Shown here one piece after another: positions 1,971-18,276 of a stretch of DNA of 64,000 nucleotides. Positions within the stretch are counted from its first letter, which is position 1. Each line of letters begins with the position of its first letter. Both the position numbers and the translations under genes were made by a program. Source of the DNA: Geomonas agri (GTDB lineage Bacteria; Desulfobacterota; Desulfuromonadia; Geobacterales; Geobacteraceae); assembly GCF_020179605.1 (NCBI RefSeq), contig NZ_JAINZO010000002.1, positions 1,612,001-1,676,000 on the forward strand. Direction: 5' to 3'. The notes under the pieces were generated by a model. That model saw only the letters and a list, made by a program, of their open reading frames with translations, did no database searches and was not told the origin of the DNA.

Positions 1971-2004
1971 TGATCGCTCGCTGACTTTCACGCCACTGGA
2001 AAAG

Positions 2005-2847: not shown

Positions 2848-2979
2848 GGCTCCATCTCCAATCTGGGTTGCCGGTGAACTACCGCCGTCAGCCCCGTAGT
2901 GCCGCTCTTGCCTCTTTGAACCAACCGTGCTTTCGGGCGCCGGCCCTGCGGCCGGCGCCCCTGTGCCATCCTTTCCGTA

Positions 2980-4335: not shown

Positions 4336-5249
4336 GGCTTGGTATCCTCCTGGTTGGATTCGGTTTCGTGCCCATGCTCACCGTGCTCCTGGTTCTTGCA
4401 GAGCAGGTGGATGCCGGAGAACAGCGCCGGCCAGATGGAAAGTACCATCGGCACCATGCCGAGGAAGTCCTTCACGTTGGAAATGATGGGGTCGTTGGAC
4501 AGCGTGGTGTCGAAGCCCAGCTTGTCGAAGCCGACCGGGGCCAGGTAGAGCCAGCTGGTACCGCCCACTTCCTTCTCGCCGTAGACGTGGTCCACGTAGC
4601 GCTCGGGGGTGGCGCGGATGCGTTCGTGCGCCAGTTTGATCAGGTCGGCGCGGTGCCCGAACGTGAGCGCCTCCTGCGGGCAGATCTCGACGCATGCGGG
4701 GGGCTTGCCGTACTTGAGCCTGGTGTCGTAGCACAGGATGCACTTCTTGACGATCGGGTTGGTTGCGCTGTCGTAATCGTAGCCCGGCGCGTTGAACGGG
4801 CAGGCGATCATACAGTTGCGGCAGCCGACGCAGACCTTGGAGTTGTAGATGACCGCCCCTTCCTGGGTCTTCGTATAGGCGTTAACGAAGCAGGAGGTGA
4901 GGCAGGCCGGCTCGTTGCAGTGGTTGCACTGCACCTTGCGGTACACCGGGCCGGACGGCTGCTCTTTCTGGTAGCGGTTCACCACCGTGTAGGCCTTGGA
5001 CGTCGGGCGCCGGTCGTGTTCGAATACTGCCGGATCGTCGAACGAGGTGTCCGGTTCCGGCAGTTTCTGTTCTTTGTTGCAGGCAGCTTCGCAGCTGCGA
5101 CAGCCGATGCAGCGGGTGGTGTCGACCAGGACACCCATCGCTTCGGGGTATCCCTCAAAGGAACCGCTGGCGTAACCTTTGTTGGTCTTGCCCAGCGCTA
5201 TGGTGGTCCCGCCTATCAGGCACGCCTTCAGGAAGTTTCTTCGTTTCAT
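4332..5249 (-). CDS. HybA-like periplasmic ferredoxin, four [4Fe-4S], Tat signal, C-terminal anchor
   Basis: The 305-residue protein starts with a twin-arginine signal (KRRNFLK) and carries sixteen Cys in four groups: CIGCRSCEAAC, CNHCNEPACLTSC, CVGCRNCMIAC, and CILC...CVEIC. That is the set expected for four cubane clusters in DmsB/NrfC/HybA proteins. A hydrophobic helix at about 263-283 near the C-terminus anchors it, as in HybA. It should carry electrons between the quinol site of the NrfD-like subunit encoded immediately downstream and a periplasmic partner, here probably the pentaheme cytochrome encoded immediately upstream. A good ribosome binding site (GAGGAA) precedes the ATG at 5249. 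There is no large molybdopterin or hydrogenase subunit nearby, so the module is an electron-transfer device rather than a hydrogenase. Confidence 0.92.
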   Translation of the reverse strand: MKRRNFLKACLIGGTTIALGKTNKGYASGSFEGYPEAMGVLVDTTRCIGCRSCEAACNKEQKLPEPDTSFDDPAVFEHDRRPTSKAYTVVNRYQKEQPSGPVYRKVQCNHCNEPACLTSCFVNAYTKTQEGAVIYNSKVCVGCRNCMIACPFNAPGYDYDSATNPIVKKCILCYDTRLKYGKPPACVEICPQEALTFGHRADLIKLAHERIRATPERYVDHVYGEKEVGGTSWLYLAPVGFDKLGFDTTLSNDPIISNVKDFLGMVPMVLSIWPALFSGIHLLCKNQEHGEHGHETESNQEDTKP

Positions 5250-5295
5250 CAGCGTTCCTCCTCAATTCATGATGAGCTGCTGTAGTTGGTGCATC

Positions 5296-5820
5296 TCATT
5301 CCTCTTCTGCATGGGCGGGTTTGGCTCCCTTGCGGTTCGTGCTGTAGAAGGCTGCGCCCTCTTTGGTGCGCGGATGGCAGTCCTGGCACCCGGTCGGGCC
5401 GTTGCCCACCTTGTTGTGGCAGCCGATGCAGTTTTGGTGCATGGCCCCTTTGAGCCCCATCTTGTCCAGGTGGTAGCGCTGCTTGTCGGCGCGCTTGGCG
5501 GCGAGGGTCTCCGGGGAGAACGGGGTGGCCGAATGGCAGCCCTTGCAGGAGACCACGGCGGTCGGGCTCGAGTTCTGGTGGCAGCGGGCACAGTTGGGAT
5601 CCAGTACCAAGGTGCCGGTGGTGTGGTGGTGGCAGTCGGCGCACTCCTTGATCGACTGGATGTGCTTGGCGTGATTGAAGGTAAACGGGCTGAACAGCTT
5701 GCCGTTCTGGTTCAAGGTGATGGAGTCCGGTACCGGCGCGCACTGCAGCGCAGCAGGGGAGGACACCGAAATGGCGCCTATGGAAAGCGCGGCAACTATA
5801 AGATGTTTGTAAGAGGACAT
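5296..5820 (-). CDS. Periplasmic pentaheme cytochrome c
   Basis: This 174-residue secreted protein has a signal peptide (residues 1 to about 25) and five CxxCH motifs at residues 60-64 (CADCH), 77-81 (CARCH), 92-96 (CKGCH), 131-135 (CIGCH) and 145-149 (CQDCH). Extra histidines (FNHAKH, HHHT, YHLDKM) could be distal ligands as in class III cytochromes. ATG 5820 has AGGAGA upstream and is preferred over in-frame starts further out, which lack a signal peptide. It sits between a 58-residue membrane protein and the Tat ferredoxin in one operon and is the likely electron exit or entry point of the cluster 1 complex. The class III-like fold is an inference from heme spacing. Confidence 0.88.
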   Translation of the reverse strand: MSSYKHLIVAALSIGAISVSSPAALQCAPVPDSITLNQNGKLFSPFTFNHAKHIQSIKECADCHHHTTGTLVLDPNCARCHQNSSPTAVVSCKGCHSATPFSPETLAAKRADKQRYHLDKMGLKGAMHQNCIGCHNKVGNGPTGCQDCHPRTKEGAAFYSTNRKGAKPAHAEEE

Positions 5821-5881
5821 GTCATGTTCTCCTGGCTCTGTAGTAGTGGGGAGGCTCACTCCCTTGCTGCTAGATCCGATG

Positions 5882-6058
5882 CTAGTGGCGCGCTGCTTCC
5901 TTGGTTCCGTCCTGCTCCTTCTTATGCAGGTAGCGGTAGAACATGGGGAACCCGATGAAGAAGGCAACGCAGATCAGGTACTCCACCCCTTTGATGTACT
6001 GGTAGAAATCCACCAGCGTGAAGACTTCCTTTATTTGTCCTACGGCGTCCAGTGTCAT
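5882..6058 (-). CDS. 58-residue single-helix membrane protein
   Basis: A short open frame starts at ATG 6058 with a clear ribosome binding site (AAAGGAG, 8 bases upstream) and ends at TAG 5882. The product has a polar N-terminus (MTLDAVGQIKEVF), a hydrophobic helix (about 24-41, VEYLICVAFFIGFPMFYRY) and a charged tail. It lies 61 bases before the pentaheme cytochrome gene and 40 bases after the 82-residue protein gene, in the same direction, so it fills what would otherwise be an odd gap. I infer a small subunit of the redox complex, comparable to small membrane subunits of other respiratory complexes. It is too short for many automatic gene callers. Confidence 0.75.
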   Translation of the reverse strand: MTLDAVGQIKEVFTLVDFYQYIKGVEYLICVAFFIGFPMFYRYLHKKEQDGTKEAARH

Positions 6059-6098
6059 GGCTTGGCTCCTTTGCGATCAGGTTGAAATCCATCGCCCC

Positions 6099-6347: not shown

Positions 6348-6398
6348 AACTTCCTCCTTTTGGCGCTTTGATGTGAAAGACGTGGTCGACTTATCTTC

Positions 6399-6420
6399 GG
6401 GGCCACGCGGTACCGGCCCC
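6399..6420 (-). other. Intercistronic hairpin
   Basis: GGGGCC (6399-6404) and GGCCCC (6415-6420) can pair across ten bases between the receiver gene and the 82-residue gene. No T run follows on the minus strand, so it looks like a processing or stability element rather than a terminator. Weak evidence. Confidence 0.35.
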
Positions 6421-6431
6421 CTTTGTTACCG

Positions 6432-6818
6432 TTATGCCATCTGCAACTTGAGGCTTTCGAAGGCGCACCGTACTGCCTGTCTGATCTCGGCGCGGTCCTC
6501 GGCGTTCACCGGCTTAAGCGCGTGGTAGAAGATCCCCTCGCTCCTGAGCTTCCTGGAGAGCGGCAGCGAGGTGCCGGCGGCTATCAGGATGATGGACAGC
6601 TTGCGGTTGCACTGTTTCAGAAGCGGGATGATCTCCGATGCGGAGAACTCGTCGAATTTGGTTCCCAGGAGCACTACCTGAGCGGTTCTTTTCAGGATCC
6701 CGGAAACAGCACTTTCTATCGAGTTGGTGACGATCACGTTGTAGCCGGACTCGATGAACATCTCGGCCATCTGTTTTCTGCAGTCCATGTCTTCGTCCAC
6801 GATGAGAAGTCCTTGCAT
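6432..6818 (-). CDS. Stand-alone receiver-like protein lacking the phospho-acceptor Asp
   Basis: The 128-residue protein has the response-regulator receiver fold: beta-1 with the acidic pair (LLIVDED, residues 4-10), the hydrophobic beta-3, and the conserved Lys (HALKP, K102) after beta-5. At the end of beta-3, where the phospho-accepting Asp belongs, it has Gly (VVLLGTKF, G52). It should therefore not be phosphorylated in the usual way. No output domain follows. ATG 6818 has GAGGGT upstream; longer in-frame starts give a low-complexity N-terminus without homology to receivers. The gene lies second in cluster 1, after a small membrane protein. Its counterpart in cluster 2 (13716-14432) has the same Asp-to-Gly change and is fused to membrane helices, which suggests that this one also acts at the membrane as a protein-interaction domain. 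Confidence 0.85.
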   Translation of the reverse strand: MQGLLIVDEDMDCRKQMAEMFIESGYNVIVTNSIESAVSGILKRTAQVVLLGTKFDEFSASEIIPLLKQCNRKLSIILIAAGTSLPLSRKLRSEGIFYHALKPVNAEDRAEIRQAVRCAFESLKLQMA

Positions 6819-6925
6819 AGCTTTACCCTCACACGACTGGGAGCATAGGTTCCGCTGTACGTTGGCTGCGTCGCCGACACCGGCGGGCGCACCGGCAGAA
6901 GTACGCCCCGCCAGTCGGCCAGCGG

Positions 6926-7177
6926 TCATAGGCTGGTCCTGTTGTTCTTGGCAACCTCTTTCGCGCGCTGCTCGGCTTCGGTGGAAAACATTCCTTTCAA
7001 GATGCGGAAGAACATGGCGAGGCCCGGTCCCAGTTGAAACAGGATCACCATGGCTATAAATGCGATGAAGATGATGGCAGCCAGGCCGAGGCCCCCGGTT
7101 TCAGTTGCGGCGGGAGATGCCATAGCCTGGGTTCCGTCCATCACCAGCGAGGCTGTCGTTACGGATAGAACCTTCAT
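6926..7177 (-). CDS. 83-residue single-helix membrane protein, Q-x-x-P...LKG family
   Basis: This is the first gene downstream of the sigma-54 promoter at 7244-7259. It encodes a possible cleavable N-terminus (residues 1-21), a Gly/Ala/Thr-rich linker, a hydrophobic helix (about 30-52) that runs into FQLGPGLAMFFRILKGMF, and a basic tail. The Q-x-x-P...LKG signature is shared with the 82-residue and 89-residue proteins of the two clusters. AAGGAGA precedes ATG 7177. A gap of 107 bases separates it from the receiver gene; no other good frame is visible there. Function unknown. Confidence 0.75.
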   Translation of the reverse strand: MKVLSVTTASLVMDGTQAMASPAATETGGLGLAAIIFIAFIAMVILFQLGPGLAMFFRILKGMFSTEAEQRAKEVAKNNRTSL

Positions 7178-7243
7178 GATAGTCTCCTTTCCTTTGGTGT
7201 GTCTGCGAACCTGGCTCAGCTTGCCTGCCTGATGACCTTACTT

Positions 7244-7259
7244 AGCATCCAACGTGCCA
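7244..7259 (-). promoter_or_regulatory. Sigma-54 (-24/-12) promoter of redox cluster 1
   Basis: On the minus strand the bases read TGGCAC-GTTGG-ATGCT, with GG and GC exactly ten bases apart. TGGCAC matches the -24 consensus perfectly, and ATGCT keeps the invariant GC of the -12 element. Transcription would start near 7232, about 55 bases before the first gene. Two 19-bp palindromes lie upstream at 7346 and 7448. Confidence 0.8.
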
Positions 7260-7345
7260 TTCACGAGCGAAAGTTGTAAGATGCTGTTTTTAAACGCGTT
7301 CTTTGGCGGCGTCATGGTCGCTTCGGGAGGGCTCGGGCGGCCGAA

Positions 7346-7364
7346 TGTATAGTGACCCTATACA
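7346..7364. promoter_or_regulatory. Palindromic operator A1 (TGTAT-N9-ATACA), putative enhancer site
   Basis: The bases read TGTATAGTGACCCTATACA inside a perfect 8-bp inverted repeat (ATGTATAG / CTATACAT, 7345-7365). It lies 87 bases upstream of the -24 GG of the cluster 1 promoter, a normal distance for a sigma-54 activator site. The same 19-bp pattern occurs at 7448, 18158 and 18258. Confidence 0.75.
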
Positions 7365-7447
7365 TGCTGCGTATCGCTCCGGAGGGGGATTCTGGGGGTG
7401 GTCAGTAAAAACGTAATAATTTCGGGGTTTAAGTGGGGGCGGTGCGG

Positions 7448-7466
7448 TGTATTGTTCCGGCATACA
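7448..7466. promoter_or_regulatory. Palindromic operator A2 (TGTAT-N9-ATACA)
   Basis: TGTATTGTTCCGGCATACA, within the perfect 7-bp arms GGTGTAT / ATACACC (7446-7468). Centre-to-centre distance to operator A1 is 102 bp. The rest of 7178-7737 (560 bases between the divergent cluster 1 and regulator gene) holds no gene that I can support; a promoter for the regulator gene itself is not evident. Confidence 0.7.
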
Positions 7467-7737
7467 CCAATAAATTCAGGTGAATTGGCGTGGTTACGGT
7501 CAGTCTCATGCGAAAGCGGGAGGCGAAGCAGCAGGTCTGTCACAGGCTGCGCAGTGAAAGTATTTTCATGTCTTTCTGTTGACAGAGTCTTCGTAGTAGG
7601 CTATTGATACAGCGGGCGGACTCCGTGGAGGGAGTCTCCCAATGGCAGAGGGTGACGCATGGGGCCGTCCTGCTTCAGCGGGCTCGAAAAACCGGTAGGC
7701 ACGGTGCATCCATAGCTGGATATAACATGGTGATTCT

Positions 7738-9144
7738 ATGCATATTCTAGTGGTCGATGATGAGTCTGTTATTAGGGATGGCCTGGCACGAATTCTCGAA
7801 GGAGATTCCTTTACCGTAGATGCGGCCAAGAACGGGCACGCTGCCATAGAGTTTCTGCAGCAGAAACAGTTCGACCTGATCATCACCGACCTCAAGATGC
7901 CGGGCATGAGCGGGTTTGAGGTGCTGAACGCGGTCAAGATACTGCAGCCAGACACGCCGGTGATCATGATCACGGGGTTCGCAACGGTGGAGACCGCCGT
8001 CGAGGCGATGAAAAACGGCACCGTCGACTACATCGTCAAGCCCTTCACGCCTGAGCAGATCCTGGAGAAGGTGCACCTCGCGCTGGAGCAGAAGAAGAGC
8101 ACGGTGGAAGATATCGTGGTGAAGAAGGAGATCGACTGCCACCACGGCTTCGACGAATTCGTCGGGGAAAGCCGCGAGATGCAGAAGGTTTACCGCCGCA
8201 TCATCCAGGTTGCCGCCACCGACAGCACCGTCCTGATCACCGGCGAGAGCGGCACCGGCAAAGAAGTGGCCGCCCGCGCCATCCACAAGCACAGCTCCAG
8301 GCGCGACCAGCCCTTCGTCGCCGTCGACTGCACCGCCCTCGCCGAAAATCTCCTCGAGAGCGAACTTTTCGGGCACGTCAAAGGCTCCTTCACCGGCGCG
8401 ATGCAGACCAAGATGGGGCTTTTGATGGTCGCCGACGGCGGGACGCTCTTCCTCGACGAGGTCTCCAACATCAGCCTCTCCACCCAGGCCAAACTCTTGC
8501 GCGTGCTGCAGGAGCGCCAGGTCACCCCGATCGGCGGCACCCAGCCGGTCTCCTTCAACATTCACCTCGTGGCTGCCACCAACCGTAACCTGAAGACCAT
8601 GGTGTCCGAGGGCAAGTTCCGGGAAGACCTCTTTTTCCGCCTCAACATCATTCCCCTGGAACTCCCTCCGCTGCGCGAGCGCAAAGGGGACATCCCGCTT
8701 TTGATCCGCCACTTCATGAACAAGTTCGTCGAGGAGGTCGGCAAGGACCTGCGGGGCATCTCCCCGGAGGCGATGCACTTCCTGGAGAACTACTCCTATC
8801 CCGGCAACGTGCGCGAACTGGTGAACACCATCGAGCGCGCCGTGGTCCTGTGCGAGGGGGACGTGATCCAGAAGGAAAACCTGGAACTGGGCGAAGCGGC
8901 CGAGGTATGCAGCACTGGTTTCGAGGGGTTCGTTCCGACCAGTGCCGAGGCCCTCAAGGAGATGAAGCGCCACATTCGGGACCGCTCGGTCGAGAACGTC
9001 GAGAAAGCGTTTGTGATCCAGGCCCTTAAGCGCAACAACTGGAACATCTCGCGTGCCGCCGAAGAGACGGGCATGCTGCGCCCCAACTTCCAGACCATGT
9101 TGAAACGGCTGGGTATCTCCGTTAAGGACTACTTCGGCCGCTAG
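7738..9144 (+). CDS. NtrC-family sigma-54 response regulator
   Basis: This 468-residue activator has an N-terminal receiver (VVDDES; phospho-Asp D51 in [11 protein letters not shown]), an AAA+ domain with Walker A GESGTGKE, the sigma-54-contacting loop as GSFTGA (the more common form is GAFTGA), the arginine-finger region and a C-terminal Fis-type helix-turn-helix ([14 protein letters not shown]...LKRLGI). It should turn ATP hydrolysis into open-complex formation at -24/-12 promoters once phosphorylated. It is transcribed divergently from redox cluster 1, with two palindromic sites and a sigma-54 promoter between them, so it is the best candidate activator of cluster 1 and, by shared sites, of the dodecaheme gene at 16946-17938. 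In G. sulfurreducens the sigma-54 regulator BccR is needed for the cbcBA genes (recollection); which of the two regulators here corresponds to it is open. Confidence 0.92.
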
Positions 9145-9357
9145 CAAAGCCCAGCCGGTCTCCTGTCGCAGCGCGACCATTCTCCCCTCCGACGGCCGCC
9201 ACCGTGGCCGACACTGTTTCTGCGCCGCTAGCTCATATCAGCGTTCCTCACAGCGATCTCTCTTTTATTGTGCTCCGACTCATGGCGAGCATTTTCCAAT
9301 GTGTTAAACTCAATGCGGATTTCTCTTAACGGCCGCAAACGGCAGGGGAGAGCGTGC

Positions 9358-11670
9358 ATGAAACAGATCAACAGTGAAAGAAAGCTGACTCCTCTCAATA
9401 TCTCGATTGTCTATGCCGTCGTCGGTGTCCTCTGGGGCGCTGCTTCCTGCCTGTTCCCGGCTGTCCTGGCCCACAAAAGCTCCATGTACCTCTCTGTGGA
9501 AACCCTGAACCACGCCTTCTTCATACTTGCCACGGCTGCGCTGCTGTACCTCTTGATCAGCCGCAGCGAAGGGGACGTGGTACGCGGCAGGGAGTCGCTG
9601 TTCAGGGTAAACCGGGCGCTCAAGACCTTCAGCGGCTGTAATCAGGCGCTGGTAAGGGCGACGGACGAACTGCAGCTTATGAAGGATGTCTGCCGCACTA
9701 TCGTTGCGACCGGCGGCTACAAGCTGGCTTGGGTAGGGATGGCCGAACACGATGACTGGAAGACGGTGCGCCCCGTGGCACAGTGGGGGGACCGGGGTGG
9801 CTACCTGACCAAGCTGGACATGAGTTGGGCCGACATCGACCGAGGCCGCGGTCCCACCGGCACCGCCATCAGGACCGGGACCACGCGCATTGTCCAGAAT
9901 ATCCGCTACGATGCCAGCTGGACCCTGTGGCGGGAAGAGGCGCTTAAGCATGGCTTCGCTGCGTCGATATCGCTGCCGCTGGTAAACGAAGGGCGGCCGC
10001 TGGGGGCATTGGTTATCTTCGCCGGGGAAAAGCGGGCCTTTGGCAAACAGGAGGTAAAGCTCCTGGAGCAGTTGGCGGACGATCTCTCGTTCGGCATCGC
10101 GACGCTACGCATGAACGTCGAACGTAAGAAGGCTGTACAGGAAATTATGCTGCTCGCCTCGGTGATCGAGCAGTCCAAGGAAGGACTCATCCTCTTCGAT
10201 AGCGACGGCACCATACAGTATGTAAACCCAGCCATAGAGACCATCACCGGGCATGACGCCCAATGCATCGTCGGGCGCAACGTCGCGGTCCTGGGTGACA
10301 GCGACAGCGGCGTCGAACTGTATCGTTCCGTGTGGGACGACCTGACCAAGGGGGAGCGGCGGACGGGGGGGCACTTCATCCAGAAGGGCAAAGAGGGAGA
10401 GTGCTACGAGATCGATATTACCTTCTGGTCCATCTCCGATACCAGCGGTGCAGTGAAGAATCACGCCGCCCTGGTCCGGGACGTGACCCACGAACTGCAA
10501 CTGGAACGGCAGTTGCGTCAGGCGCAGAGGATGGAAGCGATAGCCACCCTGGCCGGCGGTATCGCCCACGACTTCAACAACAACCTGGCCTCCATCATCA
10601 CCTGTACCGAGATGGCACGGGACGACGTGCCGCCGGAGAGCCCCCTGCGCGAGCTTTTGGACGTGGTGCTGAAATCGAGCTACCGGGGGCGCAAACTGGT
10701 GAAGCAGATCCTCACCTTCTGCTGCAAGGGGGAGCAGGAGCGGCAGCCGGTCCAGGTCGAGGCCATCGTGAACGAATGCCTGAACCTGATGCGCCCCTCG
10801 ATACCGTCCTCGATAACGGTCCACGCGCACCTGGAACCAGACCTCGGCATGATCATGGCCGACTCGACTCAGATCCACCAGATCATCATGAACCTGGTCA
10901 CCAACGCGAGCCATGCCATGCGGCTCAAAGGGGGGACCCTCGAACTTGCGCTGGAAAACGTCACCCTTGACGCCGACTCCCTCGCGGCCCCGGATCTCCC
11001 TCCCGGCCCTTACCTGAAGTTGACCGTGAAGGATTCGGGCCACGGCATGGACCAAAAGACCATGGAGCAGATCTTCGATCCTTTCTTCACCACCAAGGGG
11101 CACAACGAGGGGACAGGGCTCGGCCTTTCCGTGGTGCACGGCATAGTCAGGAACCACGGTGGGGGGATCACGGTGAGTAGCAGGCCGGGACTCGGGGCGA
11201 CCTTCGAGGTGTTGCTACCCCGGATCGCCGCGGTGCAGAATGATTCCCTGCTGCAGCCGGAGGCCGCTTCGATGGCCGGGAGCGGCAGGATCCTCTTCGT
11301 CGACGACGAGGAGGATGTCGTCTTCGCCGGCAAGAAGATGTTGGAGCGGCTTGGCTACCAGGTCGTTACCGGCTGCGACGGAATGGAGGCGCTGGAGATC
11401 TTCCGGGCCGACCCGGGTGCCGTCGACCTGGTCATCACGGACCAGACCATGCCGCGTATGACCGGTATAGAGTTGTCGCGTGAACTCGTCGCAGTCCGCT
11501 CCGATCTTCCGGTCATTCTCTGCACCGGCCTGGGGTCGGGGGTGGATCGCACCGCCCAGCGCGAGGAGGCTGAGCAGGCGGGGGTGCGTGAAGTAGCGTA
11601 CAAGCCGCTGGACCGCGAGGAAATGACGGCGATGATACGCCGGGTGATGGCACCGGCCGGGGAGGCATGA
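9358..11670 (+). CDS. Membrane-bound hybrid sensor histidine kinase (GAF-PAS-HisKA-HATPase-REC)
   Basis: The start at ATG 9358 is chosen because GGGGAG lies 8 bases upstream; the longer frame from 9268 has no such site. The 770-residue product has two N-terminal membrane helices (about 15-35 and 46-63) with almost no periplasmic loop, a GAF domain (about 75-240), a PAS domain (about 255-370), a HisKA domain with phospho-His H404 in GGIAHDFNNN, an ATPase domain (DSGHGMD, GTGLGLS) and a C-terminal receiver with D695 (VITDQTMP). Lack of a periplasmic sensor suggests it reads a cytoplasmic or membrane signal such as quinone state. Its stop overlaps the start of the next regulator gene (ATGA), so kinase and regulator are co-translated and probably form one pathway; the regulator at 7738 may share it. 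Confidence 0.92.
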   Translation: MKQINSERKLTPLNISIVYAVVGVLWGAASCLFPAVLAHKSSMYLSVETLNHAFFILATAALLYLLISRSEGDVVRGRESLFRVNRALKTFSGCNQALVRATDELQLMKDVCRTIVATGGYKLAWVGMAEHDDWKTVRPVAQWGDRGGYLTKLDMSWADIDRGRGPTGTAIRTGTTRIVQNIRYDASWTLWREEALKHGFAASISLPLVNEGRPLGALVIFAGEKRAFGKQEVKLLEQLADDLSFGIATLRMNVERKKAVQEIMLLASVIEQSKEGLILFDSDGTIQYVNPAIETITGHDAQCIVGRNVAVLGDSDSGVELYRSVWDDLTKGERRTGGHFIQKGKEGECYEIDITFWSISDTSGAVKNHAALVRDVTHELQLERQLRQAQRMEAIATLAGGIAHDFNNNLASIITCTEMARDDVPPESPLRELLDVVLKSSYRGRKLVKQILTFCCKGEQERQPVQVEAIVNECLNLMRPSIPSSITVHAHLEPDLGMIMADSTQIHQIIMNLVTNASHAMRLKGGTLELALENVTLDADSLAAPDLPPGPYLKLTVKDSGHGMDQKTMEQIFDPFFTTKGHNEGTGLGLSVVHGIVRNHGGGITVSSRPGLGATFEVLLPRIAAVQNDSLLQPEAASMAGSGRILFVDDEEDVVFAGKKMLERLGYQVVTGCDGMEALEIFRADPGAVDLVITDQTMPRMTGIELSRELVAVRSDLPVILCTGLGSGVDRTAQREEAEQAGVREVAYKPLDREEMTAMIRRVMAPAGEA

Positions 11671-13109
11671 CGGGTATGGCGAAGATCCTGATCATTGACG
11701 ACGAGGAGACCGTCTGCCAGTCCATGGCCCTCGTGGGCAAGCGTGCCGGGCATGAGACGAACTGCGCCAGGACGCTCGCCGCCGGCTGCCAGCTCGCGTC
11801 CGAAGGGGACTTCGACCTGGTGTTCCTCGATGTGCGGCTTCCCGACGGCAACGGCCTGGAGATGCTGCCGCGCCTGGCGCAGGCCCCGTCCAAGCCGGAG
11901 ATCGTCATCATGACCGGGTACGGCGACCCGGCCGGTGCGGAATTGGCGATTACCAGCGGCGCGTGGGATTACATCGAGAAAGGATCCTCGGTCAAGGACA
12001 TCACCCTATCTCTGGTGCGGGCCTTGGAATACCGAAAGCAGAAGCTCTCCCTCTCCGGACGGCAGGAGGTGGTTGCCTTGAAGCGGGAGAACATCATCGG
12101 CAACAGCCCTGCCCTGACCGCCTGCCTCGATGCCGTGGCGCGTGCGGCGGTGAGCGACGCAGGCGTTCTCATCCTGGGGGAGACCGGATCGGGGAAGGAA
12201 CTTTTCGCGCGGGCGGTGCACCAGAACAGCAAGCGCAGCGACAAGCCCTTCATAGTCGTGGACTGCGCCAGCTTACCGGAGACGCTGGTGGAGAGCCTGC
12301 TGTTCGGACATGAGAAGGGGGCATTCACCGGCGCCGAGAAGGCGCGCGACGGGCTGGTGAGCCAGGCCCACGGCGGGACGCTCTTCCTCGATGAGGTGGG
12401 CGAGTTGCCATTCGCCACGCAAAAGGCGTTCCTCAGGGTCCTGCAGGAGAGGCGCTATCGCCCGGTGGGGGGCGCGCGCGAACTGGAGAGCGATTTCCGG
12501 CTGGTGGCGGCCACCAACCGCAACCTGAGCCAGATGGCGGAGGCGGGAACCTTCCGCAGCGACCTCCTCTTCAGGTTGAGCACCTTCGTCATCGAACTCC
12601 CCCCGCTGCGGGAGCGCAGCGAGGACATCAAGGAGCTTGCCCGTTATTACATGGACAAGTTCTGTGAGAGTAACGGCCTGTCACCCAAGGGGAGCTGCCC
12701 CGAATTCATGGAAACCCTGCAGGCCTACAGCTGGCCCGGTAACGTACGCGAGTTCATCAACACCATCGAGCGGACCGTGCTGACCGCCCGGGAACAGCCG
12801 GTTCTTTTCGCCCAGCACCTGCCGACGCAGATTCGGGTGCAGGTGACTCAAAGCGCCGTCAACCGCCACGAGACCGCAGCCGCGGCTCCGGCTCCGGCTC
12901 CGGCTCCGGCTCAACTGGCTCCGCCCAGTCAACTCCCCAAGCTGAACGACTTCCGTGACAGCATCTATACCCAGGCCGAGAAGCAGTACCTCTACGACCT
13001 GATGGCTCTGGCCCAAAACGACATCGCCACCGCCTGCGACCTCTCCGGCCTTTCTCAGTCCCGTCTGTACGCCCTCTTGAAGATCCACGACTTGCACCGC
13101 TCGCCCTAG
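11667..13109 (+). CDS. NtrC-family sigma-54 response regulator, partner of the hybrid kinase
   Basis: The 480-residue protein has a receiver with D55 (VFLDVRLPDGNG), a AAA+ domain with Walker A GETGSGKE and a full GAFTGA loop, and a C-terminal helix-turn-helix (NDIATACDLSGLSQSRLYALLKIHDL). Between AAA+ and DNA-binding domain lies a flexible Ala-Pro linker (APAPAPAPAQ, about residue 405-420), longer than usual. ATG 11667 overlaps the kinase stop; an alternative start three codons later is possible. It lies directly upstream of redox cluster 2, whose sigma-54 promoter (13358) is preceded by nested palindromes (13142-13199); I infer it activates that operon. Together with the kinase it is the obvious equivalent of the two-component system that controls low-potential menaquinol oxidation genes in Geobacter. 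Confidence 0.92.
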   Translation: MTGMAKILIIDDEETVCQSMALVGKRAGHETNCARTLAAGCQLASEGDFDLVFLDVRLPDGNGLEMLPRLAQAPSKPEIVIMTGYGDPAGAELAITSGAWDYIEKGSSVKDITLSLVRALEYRKQKLSLSGRQEVVALKRENIIGNSPALTACLDAVARAAVSDAGVLILGETGSGKELFARAVHQNSKRSDKPFIVVDCASLPETLVESLLFGHEKGAFTGAEKARDGLVSQAHGGTLFLDEVGELPFATQKAFLRVLQERRYRPVGGARELESDFRLVAATNRNLSQMAEAGTFRSDLLFRLSTFVIELPPLRERSEDIKELARYYMDKFCESNGLSPKGSCPEFMETLQAYSWPGNVREFINTIERTVLTAREQPVLFAQHLPTQIRVQVTQSAVNRHETAAAAPAPAPAPAQLAPPSQLPKLNDFRDSIYTQAEKQYLYDLMALAQNDIATACDLSGLSQSRLYALLKIHDLHRSP

Positions 13110-13141
13110 CCAGCCGCCGTACCTCTTCCCTTCCCATCTTT

Positions 13142-13199
13142 TTTTCCTGTCCCGCAGGAACGTTCCTGCGCGGCAGGAAAAGCTGTCGACAGTTTTCCT
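13142..13199. promoter_or_regulatory. Nested inverted repeats upstream of redox cluster 2, putative enhancer sites
   Basis: A perfect 16-bp palindrome GCAGGAACGTTCCTGC (13154-13169) is flanked symmetrically by TTTTCCTG (13142-13149) and CAGGAAAA (13174-13181), giving a 40-bp dyad. A second dyad overlaps its right arm: AGGAAAA, CTGTCGACAG (13183-13192), TTTTCCT (to 13199). The unit CAGGAA therefore occurs four times in alternating orientation. The block ends about 160 bases upstream of the sigma-54 promoter at 13358. A terminator for the preceding regulator gene is an alternative for the first dyad, but no long T run follows on the plus strand. Confidence 0.6.
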
Positions 13200-13357
13200 A
13201 GATGTTGAAGTTGTGTAAGTGTATGAAAATACATGGATATGTCTGTGTGCCTGGCCGTTTCTCCTCCCGCTCCTCCTTTTCTTCCTTAGACGTTGTTCTC
13301 GTATCATGGTGTGACTAAGTCGCTGTAATTATTGGGCTTTATCATTTTTTGTGCGTT

Positions 13358-13373
13358 TGGCACCAGGGTTGCT
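13358..13373 (+). promoter_or_regulatory. Sigma-54 (-24/-12) promoter of redox cluster 2
   Basis: TGGCAC-CAGGG-TTGCT is an almost perfect -24/-12 element, with GG (13359-13360) and GC (13371-13372) ten bases apart. Transcription would start near 13384, about 37 bases before the first gene. The remaining bases of 13110-13420 hold the palindromes at 13142-13199 and no gene that I can support. Confidence 0.88.
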
Positions 13374-13420
13374 AAGTATGGGTAACCCTTCGGGGAATAA
13401 TGCGGAAAAAGGAGAGGGCC

Positions 13421-13690
13421 ATGACAAAGGAAACGAAAGAATCATTGTCCGGGAAAGTGACAAGTTGGTCGATCATCGGGGTGGTTGTGGCCGGGACGCT
13501 CCTCATCTCCGGTATAGCCGATGTCTCCGAGGGTAGCGGGCTGATGGCGAAGATATTCCTCCTCTTCATCGGCGCCATCATCGTCGTTCAGGTCATCCCT
13601 GGCGTTATGCTCTTCGGCGCCATGCTCAAGGGTATTTACGGCCTGTTTGGCAAGAAGGTGAAAGTCCCTCTGGAACAGGACAAAAAGTAG
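13421..13690 (+). CDS. 89-residue membrane protein, Q-x-x-P...LKG family (cluster 2)
   Basis: The ATG at 13421 follows AAGGAG by 8 bases; an in-frame ATG at 13400 would put the ribosome site inside the gene. The product has two hydrophobic helices (about 14-33 and 38-60) and a basic tail. The second helix runs VVQVIPGVMLFGAMLKGI, the same Q-x-x-P...LKG signature as the 82- and 83-residue proteins of cluster 1. It is the first gene of the sigma-54-driven cluster 2 operon, mirroring the position of the 83-residue gene in cluster 1. Function unknown. Confidence 0.78.
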   Translation: MTKETKESLSGKVTSWSIIGVVVAGTLLISGIADVSEGSGLMAKIFLLFIGAIIVVQVIPGVMLFGAMLKGIYGLFGKKVKVPLEQDKK

Positions 13691-13693
13691 CTG

Positions 13694-13707
13694 TCGCGAA
13701 TTCGCGA
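13694..13707. other. Perfect 14-bp palindrome next to a ribosome binding site
   Basis: TCGCGAATTCGCGA lies between two genes of cluster 2. Its 3' arm abuts GAGGTGG, the ribosome binding site of the gene starting at 13716, so a hairpin could limit access of ribosomes to it. The role is inference. Confidence 0.4.
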
Positions 13708-13715
13708 GGTGGCTT

Positions 13716-14432
13716 ATGGACGAACGGGGAATCATCATAGCGGACCGCGACGCCGAGTTCCGCAGCCAGGTAGCCGAATACTTCCGCAAGGCGGGGTACG
13801 AGGTCGAGACCACTGATTCAACAGTCCACGTGCTCTGCAGCATCCTGCAGAAGAAGACACCGGTGTTGTTGTTGGGAAGCGACTTCGACCAGAAGGTTTC
13901 GTCGTCGGATCTGATTCACCTGCTGAAGAAATGCAACCGCCACCTGAACGTCATCATGGTCTCTGACGACATGCCGCTGAACCAGGCGAGGCAAGTACGC
14001 AAGGCGGGCATCTTCTACCAGGCTATGAAGCCGACGGAGACTGGTGATACCGAGGAGCTGGGCCAGGCCGTCGAGTGCGCCTTCAAGACCTACCGCGCCA
14101 GCCGTCAGCAGGAGCGCATGGAGGCCTCGATGCGGCGCCGGGCACATAGGCGCGAAACGGTGGGAAAACAATCCGCCAGTGTGCCCAGGCGCTTCTCCTG
14201 GCTGATAGCGCTCGCCGTTCTCGTCTTCGGCACGAGCTTCCTGGCCGTCTCGGCGGCCCAGAGCATCGAGCGCGGCGGCAACCTCGGGATGTGGCTCTTC
14301 GTCGGGTTCAGCGCCCTGTTGCTGGTGGCGCAGTTCTTCCCGATCTTCCGGATCAAGTTGCCGCAGCGCATTTTGGCGCAGCGAACTGCCAAAGAGCAGG
14401 CTGCCTCATCGAACGAAAAATCATCTCACTAA
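13716..14432 (+). CDS. Phospho-dead receiver fused to two membrane helices
   Basis: The 238-residue protein begins with a receiver domain (residues 4-125): acidic pair IIADRDAE, beta-3 ending VLLLGSDF with Gly (G54) where the phospho-Asp should be, and the conserved Lys in QAMKP (K105). A basic stretch (RMEASMRRRAHRRE) leads to two membrane helices at about 163-185 and 193-213; the second resembles the small Q-x-x-P proteins (GMWLFVGF...VAQFFPIF). Cluster 1 encodes the same two parts as separate genes (6432-6818 and 6099-6347). The domain faces the cytoplasm if the positive-inside rule holds. I infer a non-phosphorylated docking or sensing domain attached to the menaquinol oxidoreductase; it has no DNA-binding or enzymatic part. 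Confidence 0.85.
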   Translation: MDERGIIIADRDAEFRSQVAEYFRKAGYEVETTDSTVHVLCSILQKKTPVLLLGSDFDQKVSSSDLIHLLKKCNRHLNVIMVSDDMPLNQARQVRKAGIFYQAMKPTETGDTEELGQAVECAFKTYRASRQQERMEASMRRRAHRRETVGKQSASVPRRFSWLIALAVLVFGTSFLAVSAAQSIERGGNLGMWLFVGFSALLLVAQFFPIFRIKLPQRILAQRTAKEQAASSNEKSSH

Positions 14433-14460
14433 AGGACGCGCTCCTTGAAAGGAGGGATAC

Positions 14461-15549
14461 GTGAAATCAGCCGACCTACAAAAGATGAGTTTCCTCGCCA
14501 AGCTGGCGCTGTGCGCCTGGGCGGTTGCCGGGCTCATCGCCCAAGCCAACGCCTGGGGATTCTCGTACGGTGACCAGAGTGGCAACAACCAGGCCTGCCT
14601 GTCCTGCCATGGCAAAACTGGCGAGGTGCCCAAGGGGACCTTCATCGACCCGCAGCGCTTCACACAGACCGCTCATGCCAACCTCGGGTGTGAAGCCTGC
14701 CACGCGACCGTCCCCGCCAACCATCCGGACGGCAACAAGGTGCCCAGGGCCGACTGCCGCGAATGCCACTCCGGCATCAGCGAGGAGTACGCCAAGGGGC
14801 TCCATGCTTCAAAGACTGCCTGCAACGGTTGCCATAACCCGCACCTGGTGCAGAACCCGAAGGACGTTTCCGGCCAGGAGATCAACATGATCTGTTCCAA
14901 CTGTCACAACTCGTTGGAGATGACGGCGAAACACGGCGAGTGGCTGCCCCAGTCGGAACTGCACCTGCGCATGCTGCCGTGCATCACCTGCCATACCGGC
15001 GCCAAGGACTATTACATCAGCATGTACATAGTCAAGAGCAAGGGTGACAGTAGGTACGGCAAGCAGGAAGTCGCCGAGTACGCAGATCTCAAAGCCATGG
15101 CCGGTGGCCGCCCCATCGTGTCCCTTATCGACACCAACCGGGACAACTACGTTTCCCTGGAAGAACTGCGCGTCTTCAACCGCACCCAGGCGTCGCTCCA
15201 TCTGCACGGGATGATGACCCCCTCCACGGTCTCGCACAAGTTCGAGATCCTCGACAGCAGGCGTAACTGCAGTTTCTGCCATACCTCGGGCTCCGGGCCC
15301 ATGCAGACCAGTTTTATAGCCGTGCCGGAAGCAGACGGCAGCTTCCTCAGAGTGCCGGTTGAGAAGGGGGCGGTCCTCGATGCCCTCTATGCCGCTCCGG
15401 ATTTCTACATGATGGGGTCCACCAAGAACGGGAAGCTGAATCAGATCGGGCTGGCCATCATCTGCTGCGGTCTCATCATGCCGGTGGGACACGGGTTCGT
15501 AAGGTTCCTGACCCGTAAAAATAGGAAACAAAAGGAGCATCAGTCATGA
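14461..15549 (+). CDS. cbcA: Membrane-anchored heptaheme cytochrome c, CbcA-like
   Basis: This 362-residue protein starts at GTG 14461 after GAAAGGAGG. It has a signal peptide (about 1-31), seven CxxCH motifs (CLSCH 46, CEACH 77, CRECH 99, CNGCH 121, CSNCH 145, CITCH 174, CSFCH 270) and a C-terminal membrane helix at about 328-347. Between hemes six and seven lies a 95-residue heme-free insert containing a perfect EF-hand-type loop (DTNRDNYVSLEE, 224-235). Seven hemes, a C-terminal anchor and a four-base overlap with a cytochrome b gene match CbcA of Geobacter, part of the CbcBA menaquinol:cytochrome c oxidoreductase used for respiration near the thermodynamic limit of Fe(III) reduction (family knowledge). 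It should pass electrons from the cytochrome b to periplasmic cytochromes. The symbol rests on architecture and context. Confidence 0.85.
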   Translation: MKSADLQKMSFLAKLALCAWAVAGLIAQANAWGFSYGDQSGNNQACLSCHGKTGEVPKGTFIDPQRFTQTAHANLGCEACHATVPANHPDGNKVPRADCRECHSGISEEYAKGLHASKTACNGCHNPHLVQNPKDVSGQEINMICSNCHNSLEMTAKHGEWLPQSELHLRMLPCITCHTGAKDYYISMYIVKSKGDSRYGKQEVAEYADLKAMAGGRPIVSLIDTNRDNYVSLEELRVFNRTQASLHLHGMMTPSTVSHKFEILDSRRNCSFCHTSGSGPMQTSFIAVPEADGSFLRVPVEKGAVLDALYAAPDFYMMGSTKNGKLNQIGLAIICCGLIMPVGHGFVRFLTRKNRKQKEHQS

Positions 15550-16268
15550 GCGAGAAAACGAGGATCTACCTACAGCCCTGGCCCATACGCATCTGGCACT
15601 GGATCAACGCCTCGGGCATCATCATCCTGATCCTGTCCGGCGCCCAGATCCGGTTTCCTGAGACTCTGAGCATCTTCACCAGCTACAAGAGCGCCATCGA
15701 GGTGCACAACACCGCCGGGATCATCGTTTCCATCTCCTTCTCGTTCTGGTTCTTCTACTACAAGATGGTGAAGAACACGCTGGACAAGTTGTACATCCCG
15801 GACGAGGAAGACATCAAGCACGGCCTGGTACGTCAGCTCCTGTATTACTGCTTCTGGTACTTCCTGGGGCGTCCGAGCCCATACCACGCTACGCCGGATC
15901 ACAAGTTCAACCCGATGCAGAAATCGGCGTACCTGGCGGTCATGTTCGTGCTCATGCCGCTGGTGGGGCTCACGGGAATCCTGCTGCTGAACGTAACCCC
16001 ACTGCGCGTGCTGATCCTGATGTGGGGCGGCATCAAGTTTATCGTCGCGCTCCATTTCCTTCTGGCCTGTTCGCTGCTCGCCTTCCTCTGCACGCACGTC
16101 TACCTGGCGACCTTGGGCGACTACATCAAGCCGATGCTGATCGGGTGGGAGGAAGTGGAAGAGCATGCAGAAGCGGAGGCGCCCACGGAAGTCGCCATTC
16201 CTGGCTACCGGCCGGTGCGTCACTACCCCGAGTACGAGCAGGAACTTCTGGAGCAGCGTCATAGTTGA
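15546..16268 (+). CDS. cbcB: Cytochrome b, di-heme quinol-oxidising subunit, CbcB-like
   Basis: The 240-residue protein is of the four-helix hydrogenase/formate dehydrogenase-type cytochrome b family. Candidate heme ligands are His in helix 1 (RIWHWINASG), helix 2 (EVHNTAG) and helix 4 (ALHFLLACSLLAFLCTHVYL). The C-terminal 45 residues are soluble and acidic. Its ATG overlaps the stop of the heptaheme cytochrome gene (ATGA), so the pair is translated together. It should take electrons from menaquinol in the cytoplasmic membrane and deliver them to the heptaheme partner. In G. sulfurreducens the equivalent genes are transcribed under a sigma-54 regulator, in line with the promoter at 13358. 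Assignment to CbcB is by family and context. Confidence 0.85.
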   Translation: MSEKTRIYLQPWPIRIWHWINASGIIILILSGAQIRFPETLSIFTSYKSAIEVHNTAGIIVSISFSFWFFYYKMVKNTLDKLYIPDEEDIKHGLVRQLLYYCFWYFLGRPSPYHATPDHKFNPMQKSAYLAVMFVLMPLVGLTGILLLNVTPLRVLILMWGGIKFIVALHFLLACSLLAFLCTHVYLATLGDYIKPMLIGWEEVEEHAEAEAPTEVAIPGYRPVRHYPEYEQELLEQRHS

Positions 16269-16305
16269 TGGACAGGGTTGCTAATTCCGGGAAAGGAGAA
16301 CGGCC

Positions 16306-16851
16306 ATGTCAGGACATCATCTTATCGAGCATTTGAAAGCGAAGCCGATGCGGGAAACGGCCCAGGTTGCGACGGGAAATGAGCTTTCCTGGAGCCGGGA
16401 ACACGTTACCAAGAACGTCGAGCAGTTGCATGTCCTGTCCCGCCGCGGGCTGTGGGGGCTGTTGCTCTTCCTGGGGCTTAGCGCCGCGGCCCTCGCTCTC
16501 AGTCAAATGAACGTGTCGTCGGTTGCCCAAGCGGAACTGGAGGGGATCATCGGTCCTCTGCCGTCGGTCGACATGCTCAACCTGGTCCTTGGGATTTCGT
16601 GGCTGTCTGCCCTGGTGTTGATCGTGGGGCGCAGGGGGAGTGACGGCAGGCCCGGGTACAGCTGGCACAACGTCGGCCTTCCCGCTGTTTTCTACCCGCT
16701 CTATGTCTTCTGTGACACGACCGGCACCTACTTCCCGATGGTGTTCCTTGCCGGCCTCGTCTTACTGCTTTTGGAACACGGCTTCGTGGTCTGCTACACC
16801 GCCAAGGCGATCAAGGAGGAAACTGCCCGCCTGGAACGCCTGCGCGATTGA
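16306..16851 (+). CDS. Four-helix membrane protein of redox cluster 2 (paralogue of 1410-1970)
   Basis: This 181-residue protein follows the cytochrome b gene by 37 bases and has AAAGGAG before its ATG. A soluble N-terminus of about 45 residues precedes four hydrophobic segments. SRRGLWGLLLFLGLS matches SNRGLWALSLFLLLS of the cluster 1 protein, and WHNVGLPAVFYPLY matches CHVGYLAGFYLFY, so both descend from one ancestor. It is the last gene before the terminator at 16884. The comparable G. sulfurreducens operon also ends with a membrane protein gene (recollection). I infer an accessory subunit shared in type, though not in sequence identity, by two different quinol-oxidising cores. Confidence 0.75.
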   Translation: MSGHHLIEHLKAKPMRETAQVATGNELSWSREHVTKNVEQLHVLSRRGLWGLLLFLGLSAAALALSQMNVSSVAQAELEGIIGPLPSVDMLNLVLGISWLSALVLIVGRRGSDGRPGYSWHNVGLPAVFYPLYVFCDTTGTYFPMVFLAGLVLLLLEHGFVVCYTAKAIKEETARLERLRD

Positions 16852-16883
16852 TCCTTCTGTGCAGGAACGGCCCTCCATGCACA

Positions 16884-16917
16884 ACCGGCCACTCGATTCC
16901 GAGTGGCCGGTTTTTTT
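16884..16917 (+). terminator. Rho-independent terminator of redox cluster 2
   Basis: ACCGGCCACTCG (16884-16895) pairs perfectly with CGAGTGGCCGGT (16900-16911) around a four-base loop, followed by a T run to 16917. It lies 33 bases after the last gene and also separates it from the convergent dodecaheme gene. Confidence 0.92.
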
Positions 16918-16945
16918 GTGCTTCGGGAGTAGAGCAGGGGGCTGG

Positions 16946-17938
16946 CTAGCCGTGCTGGTGGCAGGAATCGCAGTTGCCGTTCACGGTGAAGGCTGACTTG
17001 CCGTCGTGGCAGGCACCGCACGACTTGGCGTTTTTCATCTCGTCCATGGACACGGGCTTGCCGCCGCGTTTGGTCGGGAAGGTACCGCTGTGGCAGTCCT
17101 TGCACTTGTACATGCCCAGATGGTTGCTGTGGCTGAACTTGACGTCACCAGCATCGGCGACCTTGAACTTGATCTCCTGGACCGGGTGGCACTTGTCGCA
17201 TTGTGATACTGCGAAGGCATCCTTGGCATTGTGGCATGCCCCGCACGATTTTCCTTTCTCCATCGCCGCCATGGTGACAGGTTTGCTGGAACCGAGGGGG
17301 AACAGCTTTGTATGACAGGAACTGCAGCTGTAGATCTCGACGTGCTTGCTGTGGCTGAAGACGATGGGGCCGGTCTCCTTCACCTTGAACACGACCTGCT
17401 TGGGCGAAGGGTGGCAGCCGTCGCACTTGGCGACGCTGAAGGCTTTCTTGCCGTTGTGGCAGGCACCGCAGGATTTCCCCTTCTCCATTTCGGCCATGGA
17501 GACCGACTTGTTGGGGCCGGTCTTGTAAAGGGAGTTATGGCAGGCGTTGCACTGCATCGTTTGCAGGTGCTTGTTGTGGCTGAAGAGCACGGGACCGGTC
17601 TCTTTCACCTTGAAGGTGATGTTCTTGACCTTGTGACAGGCGGTGCACTTGGCGACGCTGAAGGCCTTGTTGCCGTTATGACACTTGCCGCACGATTTCC
17701 CCTTCTCCATGTCGGCCATGGTGTATTTCACTTTGGCCACGCGCGGATTCTCGTGGCACACCTTGCAACTGACGTTGGGGCTCTTCTCCGTTTTCTTCTT
17801 GAGGTGCTTGTTGTGGCTGAAGACCACCTTGCCTCCCCCGTCGGTCTGGTAGGTTATGTCCTTCAGTTCGATGGCGTATGCTGCGGAAGATCCTACGGCT
17901 AGCGCGGCCAGGACAATGAACGCCGGTTTGAATCTCAT
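16946..17938 (-). CDS. Periplasmic dodecaheme cytochrome c of four c7-type repeats
   Basis: The 330-residue protein has a signal peptide (residues 1-22) and twelve CxxCH motifs in four consecutive three-heme repeats. Each repeat has the order FSH-x-KH (distal ligand), C-x-x-CH, the sequence MEKGKSCGACHNGKKAFSV or a variant of it, and a final C-x-x-CH. This is the layout of GSU1996 and its relative GSU0592 of G. sulfurreducens, linear chains of c7 (PpcA-like) domains that act as molecular wires in the periplasm (family knowledge). It is transcribed towards the CbcAB-like operon, with its own sigma-54 promoter at 18067 and two palindromic sites upstream, and AAGGAGG before ATG 17938. I infer that it accepts electrons from the neighbouring quinol oxidoreductases. 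Confidence 0.93.
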   Translation of the reverse strand: MRFKPAFIVLAALAVGSSAAYAIELKDITYQTDGGGKVVFSHNKHLKKKTEKSPNVSCKVCHENPRVAKVKYTMADMEKGKSCGKCHNGNKAFSVAKCTACHKVKNITFKVKETGPVLFSHNKHLQTMQCNACHNSLYKTGPNKSVSMAEMEKGKSCGACHNGKKAFSVAKCDGCHPSPKQVVFKVKETGPIVFSHSKHVEIYSCSSCHTKLFPLGSSKPVTMAAMEKGKSCGACHNAKDAFAVSQCDKCHPVQEIKFKVADAGDVKFSHSNHLGMYKCKDCHSGTFPTKRGGKPVSMDEMKNAKSCGACHDGKSAFTVNGNCDSCHQHG

Positions 17939-18066
17939 GGTTGCCTCCTTTGACGGTAGTGGGATTGGCTTCTTATGATCACTCTGCTACGAGCTGAAAT
18001 ATCGGAGCGGGCCAGGCTGCCGCCGCGCTTTCTGCTGCCACGGATAAACCGGCACGAGTTCTCTTT

Positions 18067-18082
18067 AGCATTAGCCGTGCCT
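18067..18082 (-). promoter_or_regulatory. Sigma-54 (-24/-12) promoter of the dodecaheme gene
   Basis: On the minus strand AGGCAC-GGCTA-ATGCT, with GG and GC ten bases apart; the -12 element ATGCT is identical to that of the cluster 1 promoter. Transcription would start near 18055, leaving a leader of about 117 bases. The other bases of 17939-18370 hold two operators, a terminator for the next gene, and no gene. Confidence 0.65.
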
Positions 18083-18157
18083 GATTTTTCCACTAATCGT
18101 AACTTCCTGAAAGTACGTAGTTTTTATCCCGACCCCTGGGCAGGCGTCGTCCGCGGC

Positions 18158-18176
18158 TGTATAAAGATGCTATACA
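18158..18176. promoter_or_regulatory. Palindromic operator B1 (TGTAT-N9-ATACA)
   Basis: TGTATAAAGATGCTATACA, 76 bases upstream of the -24 GG of the dodecaheme promoter. The TGTATA arms are identical to those of operator A1 in front of cluster 1. Confidence 0.72.
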
Positions 18177-18257
18177 CCGAACCGATGCGATTGGAGGTAA
18201 GGTGTTGAAAGTAAATCTGTTTTACAGTGGGGGTGTGCGCGGTGGAGGGGCGGCTGC

Positions 18258-18276
18258 TGTATAGCAAACATATACG
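18258..18276. promoter_or_regulatory. Palindromic operator B2 (TGTAT-N9-ATACG)
   Basis: TGTATAGCAAACATATACG, one mismatch in the last base. Its centre is exactly 100 bp from that of B1, almost the same spacing as the A1/A2 pair (102 bp). Confidence 0.65.

Follow-up and report, generated by a model that had tools for sequence, protein, structure and literature searches.

Paired palindromes before two -24/-12 promoters in Geomonas agri, predicted operators of an NtrC-type regulator of multiheme cytochrome genes

The stretch of DNA analysed here, hereafter the window, comprises 64,000 nucleotides of Geomonas agri (contig NZ_JAINZO010000002.1, positions 1,612,001 to 1,676,000) and harbors two cytochrome gene clusters, a separate gene for a dodecaheme c-type cytochrome, two genes for NtrC-type response regulators and one for a hybrid histidine kinase (Table 1). 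Both cluster 1, from 7259, and the dodecaheme gene, from 18082, are read leftward. Upstream of each lies a pair of 19-bp palindromes, denoted pair A (cluster 1) and pair B (dodecaheme gene), and it is these four sites, together with the regulator encoded at 7738-9144 that is predicted to bind them, that are treated in the following.

Table 1. Features of the window, given as positions within it (IHF, integration host factor; HTH, helix-turn-helix).
Feature	Position	Strand	Remarks
Palindrome 1, pair A, promoter-proximal	7346..7364	none	TGTATAGTGACCCTATACA
Palindrome 2, pair A, promoter-distal	7448..7466	none	TGTATTGTTCCGGCATACA
Palindrome 3, pair B, promoter-proximal	18158..18176	none	TGTATAAAGATGCTATACA
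Palindrome 4, pair B, promoter-distal	18258..18276	none	TGTATAGCAAACATATACG
-24/-12 element, cluster 1	7244..7259	-	TGGCACGTTGGATGCT; found in 7 of 7 of loci L005-L011
-24/-12 element, dodecaheme gene	18067..18082	-	AGGCACGGCTAATGCT; similar element in L005-L011
NtrC-type response regulator, proposed binder of the four palindromes	7738..9144	+	receiver, sigma-54 AAA+ and Fis-type HTH domains
IHF-like site, pair A to promoter	7277..7289	-	AAACAGCATCTTA, 1 mismatch to WATCARNNNNTTR; centre 24 bp from -24 GG
Weak IHF-like site between pair A palindromes	7406..7418	-	TATTACGTTTTTA, 2 mismatches, near shuffled background
IHF-like site, pair B to promoter	18100..18112	-	TTTCAGGAAGTTA, 1 mismatch; centre 24 bp from -24 GG
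IHF-like site between pair B palindromes	18198..18210	-	TTTCAACACCTTA, 1 mismatch; L005 has a similar site there
Receiver-domain protein, first gene of cluster 1	6432..6929	-	
Multiheme c-type cytochrome, cluster 1	5296..5967	-	5 CxxCH
Iron-sulfur protein related to HmcB	4332..5249	-	below NCBIfam cut-off
HmcC-related protein	2980..4335	-	below NCBIfam cut-off; no Pfam match
Cache-like sensor-domain protein without kinase	2005..2847	-	one CxxCH; below Pfam cut-off; CbcD-like by position
Small protein	1410..2066	-	hydrophobic by eye; no family match; CbcE-like by position
Dodecaheme c-type cytochrome	16946..17938	-	12 CxxCH; CbcC/OmcQ-like by position in relatives
GAF-PAS hybrid histidine kinase	9268..11670	+	adjoins regulator 11667 also in L012, L154, L158, L183, L188, L189
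Second NtrC-type response regulator, proposed to bind the TTCCTG tandem rather than the TGTAT pairs	11667..13109	+	sigma-54 activator
Tandem operator before cluster 2, first half	13144..13160	none	TTCCTGTCCCGCAGGAA
Tandem operator, second half	13163..13179	none	TTCCTGCGCGGCAGGAA; 19 bp on
-24/-12 element, cluster 2	13358..13373	+	TGGCACCAGGGTTGCT
Cluster 2 (four genes)	13716..16851	+	without TGTAT pair
Receiver protein, cluster 2	13716..14432	+	
7-heme CbcA-like cytochrome, cluster 2	14461..15549	+	
Cytochrome b561, CbcB-like, cluster 2	15546..16268	+	
Small protein, cluster 2	16306..16851	+	hydrophobic by eye

All four copies of TGTAT-N9-ATACA (or -ATACG) that the first-pass annotation had pointed out were recovered, and so was the geometry it had described. 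The start-to-start spacing is 102 bp within pair A and 100 bp within pair B, the near palindrome edge is exactly 87 and 76 bases, respectively, from the -24 GG, and each pair lies upstream of a -24/-12 element on the minus strand, both promoters reading leftward. As it had also stated, a scan of the window gave no copy of the 19-bp palindrome before cluster 2. The two promoters are GG-N10-GC elements upstream of genes, a feature of sigma-54-dependent promoters, and RpoN is encoded in the genome (TIGR02395, 437.8 bits with a cut-off of 277.35). A start near 6818 is suggested for the receiver gene because several orthologues begin at MQGLLI, and a leader of ~400 bases (about 6818-7244) separates the cluster 1 promoter from this likely start; several relatives have a comparably long leader (321-441, counted from the -24 GG). 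A known riboswitch or other RNA in the leader was rejected, as 5950-7400 had no Rfam match at E up to 1, and nothing reached the Rfam gathering thresholds across the window.

The specificity of the signal resides in the strict pair and not in the single site. Strict TGTATN9ATACA occurs four times in the genome, three of these in the window (reversed control: two), while single sites with up to two mismatches number 31 genome-wide versus 26 for the control, and four versus an expected 1.93 within the window. A lone relaxed site is hence no signal by itself. In 100 dinucleotide shuffles of the window there was no palindrome match at all. The genome-wide scan that had been proposed as a check showed that the pair is not frequent and randomly distributed: strict pairs were confined to the two window promoters in the 4.68-Mb genome, and the reversed control gave none. 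Among 27 other near-matching sites, scanned in 16 stretches of 1.3-1.4 kb plus 3-kb loci, none had both a comparable partner and, 60-115 bp away, a -24/-12 element. Partners with 3 mismatches did give weak combinations, of which the nearest (L088) has its elements at 23-25 and 125 bp. Judged by strict pairs alone, the regulon consists of two transcription units. Two or three pair-bearing -24/-12 promoters per stretch were observed in loci L188, L189, L242, L272 and L274, which suggests a larger regulon in some other genera than in the genome of the window.

Pairs were found in all eight named relatives fetched near the regulator (L005-L012, namely Geomonas, Citrifermentans, an uncultured Geobacter and a Desulfuromonadales metagenome-assembled genome; regulator identity 67-99%), the remaining 72 loci of the same search encoding more distant regulators. 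All seven of L005-L011 have both pairs, pair A in the same place as in the window, with the half-sites kept and the inner bases varying. Over the order, strict pairs are present in 72 out of 141 genomes (reversed control pattern: one match overall); no genome of the genus is without one, and 16 of its 19 have two. Outside the genus, 92 regulator loci (1.51 Mb, not counting three fetched loci from within it; up to three mismatches per pair) held 60 pairs, a few of which share a site, and 55 of these face a -24/-12 element at 60-115 bp, versus 0-7 pairs and 0-1 with a promoter when 19 permuted half-sites were run over the same loci. Locus L150 was without a good pair and was left out of the pair-driven operons. 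Between near palindrome and -24 GG, the distances cluster around 75, 86, 99 and 108 bp, and the pair spacings fall at 87-94 and 99-108 bp, with a few at 111-113 bp. Since a Rayleigh test, whose rows are not independent, gave a better fit for periods near 11.5 for the promoter distances and near 13 for the spacings inside pairs than for 10.5, only clusters of preferred distances are claimed.

The regulator at 7738-9144, to which the first-pass annotation had assigned all four sites, has Pfam matches above cut-off to PF00072, PF00158, PF25601 and PF02954. Its translation contains GSFTGA (read by eye), a one-residue variant of GAFTGA, the loop motif of sigma-54 enhancer-binding regulators of the NtrC class. 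Covariation of the half-site (TGTAT or TGCAT) with HTH residues was tried and gave nothing conclusive, the recognition helix being nearly invariant, with LRPNFQ near-invariant across 104 aligned orthologues. The orthologue group was delimited within the order at no less than 540 bits, the next paralogues scoring at most 403, and is represented in 107 out of 141 genomes, including all 19 of the genus. Strict pairs occur in 71 of these 107 carriers versus one of the 34 non-carriers (Fisher test ignoring shared ancestry, p = 8e-12). Outside the order, an orthologue was found in 82 out of 127 genomes (E up to 1e-140), with pairs in 17 of the carriers versus two of the 45 others (p = 0.018, shared ancestry again ignored). 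For 14 of these 17, the regulator gene and the nearest pair are 67-209 bp apart, the pair being on the 5' side of the gene in four and on the 3' side in ten, and all ten of the latter belong to family f8. Within the 95 fetched regulator loci, a pair is situated 5' of the regulator gene in 33 (centre 107-394 bp away), elsewhere only in 20 and nowhere in 42. Co-occurrence, pairs beside the orthologous gene and, as described below, a distinct operator for the second regulator thus support the assignment. The earlier reading of one regulator, four sites and two units is well supported by this comparative evidence, and we put at roughly 0.86 the probability of the explanation that the four palindromes are upstream activating sites of regulator 7738-9144, through which it would co-activate cluster 1 and the dodecaheme gene by the mechanism proposed below.

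Just after gene 11667 and before cluster 2 sits a tandem of TTCCTG-N5-CAGGAA, and the lack of a TGTAT copy before cluster 2 would be explained by this conserved operator of its own. Allowing up to three mismatches, the tandem was identified in 23 of the 141 genomes of the order (control: none). It follows the second regulator closely: 22 of the 42 genomes with a matched 11667 orthologue have it, versus one of the 99 without (G069, 52% complete), and among carriers of the 7738 orthologue the corresponding numbers are 21/41 and 1/66. The two regulators can therefore be told apart, and the tandem is proposed as the candidate operator of regulator 11667. That it is instead the terminator of gene 11667 is less likely, as copies are found on another contig (G053 and G022, the latter with only a fragment as 11667 match) or ~237 kb off (G121); no T-run follows it in the window, as read by eye. 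A TGTAT-N4-ATACA sequence at 13220, considered as a half-spaced copy before cluster 2, is missing in 13 out of 13 loci of relatives and was attributed to chance. The receiver proteins that open clusters 1 and 2 look related by eye.

Against this background, it is improbable that another regulator, e.g. the one at 11667-13109 or another NtrC-type protein of the genome, binds the four palindromes. Regulator 11667 is indeed encoded nearby, is likewise a sigma-54 activator, and over the whole order is weakly associated with strict pairs (31/42 versus 41/99, p = 0.0005), but the association is gone among carriers of the 7738 orthologue (30/41 versus 41/66, p = 0.29), a pair is kept in the 7 of the 19 genus genomes that have no 11667 match, and the TTCCTG tandem provides this regulator with a candidate operator of its own. 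We consider it very unlikely that the pairs mainly serve repression, i.e. that the regulator or another protein acts on the divergent 7738 gene by way of autoregulation and that the link to -24/-12 elements is secondary. The 33 loci with a pair 5' of the regulator gene would fit such a role, but not the -24/-12 elements facing 55 of 60 pairs, pair B of the window, which has no divergent regulator gene, or the 3' location in the ten f8 genomes. Virtually no credence can be given to coincidence, or to a recently copied repeat without function: common as near-matching single sites are in the genome, the shuffled windows were devoid of matches, the half-sites are conserved while the inner bases differ between species, and strict pairs recur across half the order with next to nothing in the reversed control.

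Sites resembling the binding sequence of IHF were searched for with WATCARNNNNTTR, allowing one mismatch, in 95 non-redundant paired promoters and in 100 dinucleotide shuffles of these. Such sites were found between the palindromes in 35 of the promoters (shuffles: mean 13.9, maximum 24) and between pair and promoter in 48 (mean 23.1, maximum 35). Out of 55 matches in the latter interval, 29 lie on the same strand with their centre 34 or 35 bp away from the GG, and in the 99-107 bp spacing class 13 of the 31 matches between palindromes lie 38-41 bp from the near palindrome, likewise on the same strand. In the fetched loci, a site at the 34/35-bp distance was present at 14 of 55 paired versus 2 of 63 unpaired promoters. 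IHF-like sites are thus in excess, and at preferred positions, over paired promoters, which suggests that IHF may fold a split enhancer.

Loci of several other genera have the gene of the 7738 orthologue diverging from a single operon behind a pair (L128, L131, L161, L164, L175, L196). The gene order in this operon is receiver, either CbcA-CbcB or a set of 5-heme, HmcB-like and HmcC-like proteins, dodecaheme cytochrome, Cache/HAMP protein and small protein; differently arranged loci include L154, L158, L183, L188 and L189. The g6 genomes (L161, L164), for example, have receiver, 7-heme CbcA-like cytochrome, CbcB-like cytochrome b, dodecaheme cytochrome, HAMP/CxxCH protein and small protein. 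The window differs in that its dodecaheme gene is found outside the operon, yet with its own pair, and the retention of a pair by the split-off gene supports common control of both units. A swap of modules under one switch was also observed, CbcA-CbcB and the 5-heme/HmcB-like/HmcC-like set alternating between the same kinds of flanking genes (1410-6929 in the window; L161, L128, L175, L196).

A histidine kinase of 392-595 residues with one N-terminal CxxCH is encoded in 66 of the 95 fetched regulator stretches. Its counterpart in the genome of the window (L299:3045-4670) shares 58% identity with the kinase of L161 along most of its length and is situated ~15 kb left of the regulator, outside the window; each of the 19 genus genomes has one high-scoring match to this kinase type. 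A sensor kinase with a c-heme motif in its sensor part is the likely source of the input, and we infer its pairing with the regulator and a redox signal at the heme. The cluster 1 protein 2005-2847 resembles the sensor half of the L299 kinase, without the kinase part.

In the mechanism that we propose, the palindromes would act as upstream activating sites of regulator 7738-9144, which would receive its input from the c-heme-motif kinase encoded just outside the window. Two regulator dimers would bind per pair, one on each site ~100 bp apart, and IHF would bend the DNA in both intervals, that within the pair and that from pair to promoter. Dimers and IHF together would then form the ATPase ring that opens the sigma-54 polymerase at both leftward promoters, co-activating cluster 1, with its receiver, cytochrome and quinol-oxidising membrane complex, and the dodecaheme cytochrome. 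A more specific version is offered tentatively, at odds clearly below even: the ring would assemble only on folded DNA, sites 8.5-10 helical turns apart being joined by one IHF bend and a second bend delivering the ring to the promoter, and the IHF-folded split enhancer would be a low-redox-potential switch for swappable quinol-oxidising modules, operated via the heme-motif kinase, a kinase-less relative of whose sensor would itself be encoded by the regulated operon.

Besides the weak association with gene 11667 over the whole order, a number of observations weigh against the proposed mechanism. There is no strict pair in 36 of the 107 carriers in the order and in 65 of the 82 outside it; L161, L162, L164 and L169 have degenerate pairs, and others none within the fetched stretch. 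Conversely, pairs were found in one non-carrier within the order (G133) and two outside it (G245, G266), these three genomes being 73-81% complete (G133: 73%), and the Fisher tests of co-occurrence do not account for shared ancestry. Only one strict pair occurs in G033, G034 and G036, though a separate dodecaheme gene lies near the regulator (mapped in L135). As for IHF, no match with up to one mismatch lies between the palindromes in 60 of the 95 promoters, nor between pair and promoter in 47. Here the window is a weaker example than the set as a whole, its sites being about one helical turn off the commonest positions: the promoter-side ones lie at 24 bp, and the range of 22-26 bp gave no clear excess (5 of 55 paired versus 3 of 63 unpaired promoters), while for pair B 28 bp separate the central site from the near palindrome. 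Finally, the heme-motif kinase is not encoded beside the regulator in this genus.

When the acceptor potential falls, this group of bacteria switches inner-membrane cytochromes. An operator, a regulator, a promoter geometry and a candidate heme-bearing kinase make the question of how they sense and switch directly testable. The operator also makes the regulon readable from sequence, since it accompanies the split-off dodecaheme gene in the window and in most of the genus, and persists when the quinol-oxidising module is exchanged.

The closest known system is the BccR/CbcBA (Cbc5) system of Geobacter sulfurreducens, reportedly described by Joshi, Chan and Bond in 2021. We take the regulator of the Cbc5 region to be BccR (GSU0598), which is said to be needed for expression of the bc-type cytochrome operon. 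According to the literature on that species, CbcA (GSU0594) is a heptaheme cytochrome, CbcB is GSU0593, CbcC has 12 hemes, CbcD a HAMP domain and two hemes, OmcQ (GSU0592) 12 hemes, and GSU0596 is a response receiver; CbcBA is induced in the absence of acceptors that are reduced more easily, and it works near -0.2 V. The CbcA-CbcB-dodecaheme order of the g6 loci matches this naming, and since the gene order agrees with the Cbc5 region, regulator 7738-9144 is probably the BccR orthologue. In contrast to Cbc5, the pair A operon of the window has the 5-heme/HmcB-like/HmcC-like module in place of CbcBA, the CbcBA-like genes are found in cluster 2 behind another operator, and the dodecaheme gene stands apart, preceded by a pair of its own. 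A genome-wide study deals with -24/-12 promoters (the RpoN regulon) in G. sulfurreducens (PMC2725144); its main text contains no GSU059x gene and no "palindrom". A literature search covering few subscription papers gave no such operator, and "BccR" was absent from the accessible text of the Geobacter papers found.

The class of system, i.e. a sigma-54 activator with upstream sites, is already known, and the regulator itself is probably known as well. NtrC at glnA and the upstream activating sites of NifA are examples of palindromic activator sites ~100 bp or more upstream of a -24/-12 promoter, the NifA site being TGT-N10-ACA. The sites in the window, which read TGT-N13-ACA when written in this way, are thus not of the NifA type. 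The likeness to NtrC and NifA lies in palindromic sites upstream of a -24/-12 promoter and in an IHF-like site between enhancer and promoter, whereas the half-sites and spacing differ, and the paired sites, instead of lying close together, are separated by ~8.5-10 helical turns that often include an IHF-like site. For IHF, a location between enhancer and promoter is also described in PMC7962754. Inverted-repeat operators have also been assigned comparatively to enhancer-binding proteins for the sigma-54 activator regulons of Desulfovibrio vulgaris, with a different motif (e.g. yGTCA-N6-TGACr) and other genes (PMC4641369). What is new in comparison with these systems is the paired operator with regularly placed IHF-like sites, its distribution over the order and outside it, and the arrangement of two regulators with two operators.

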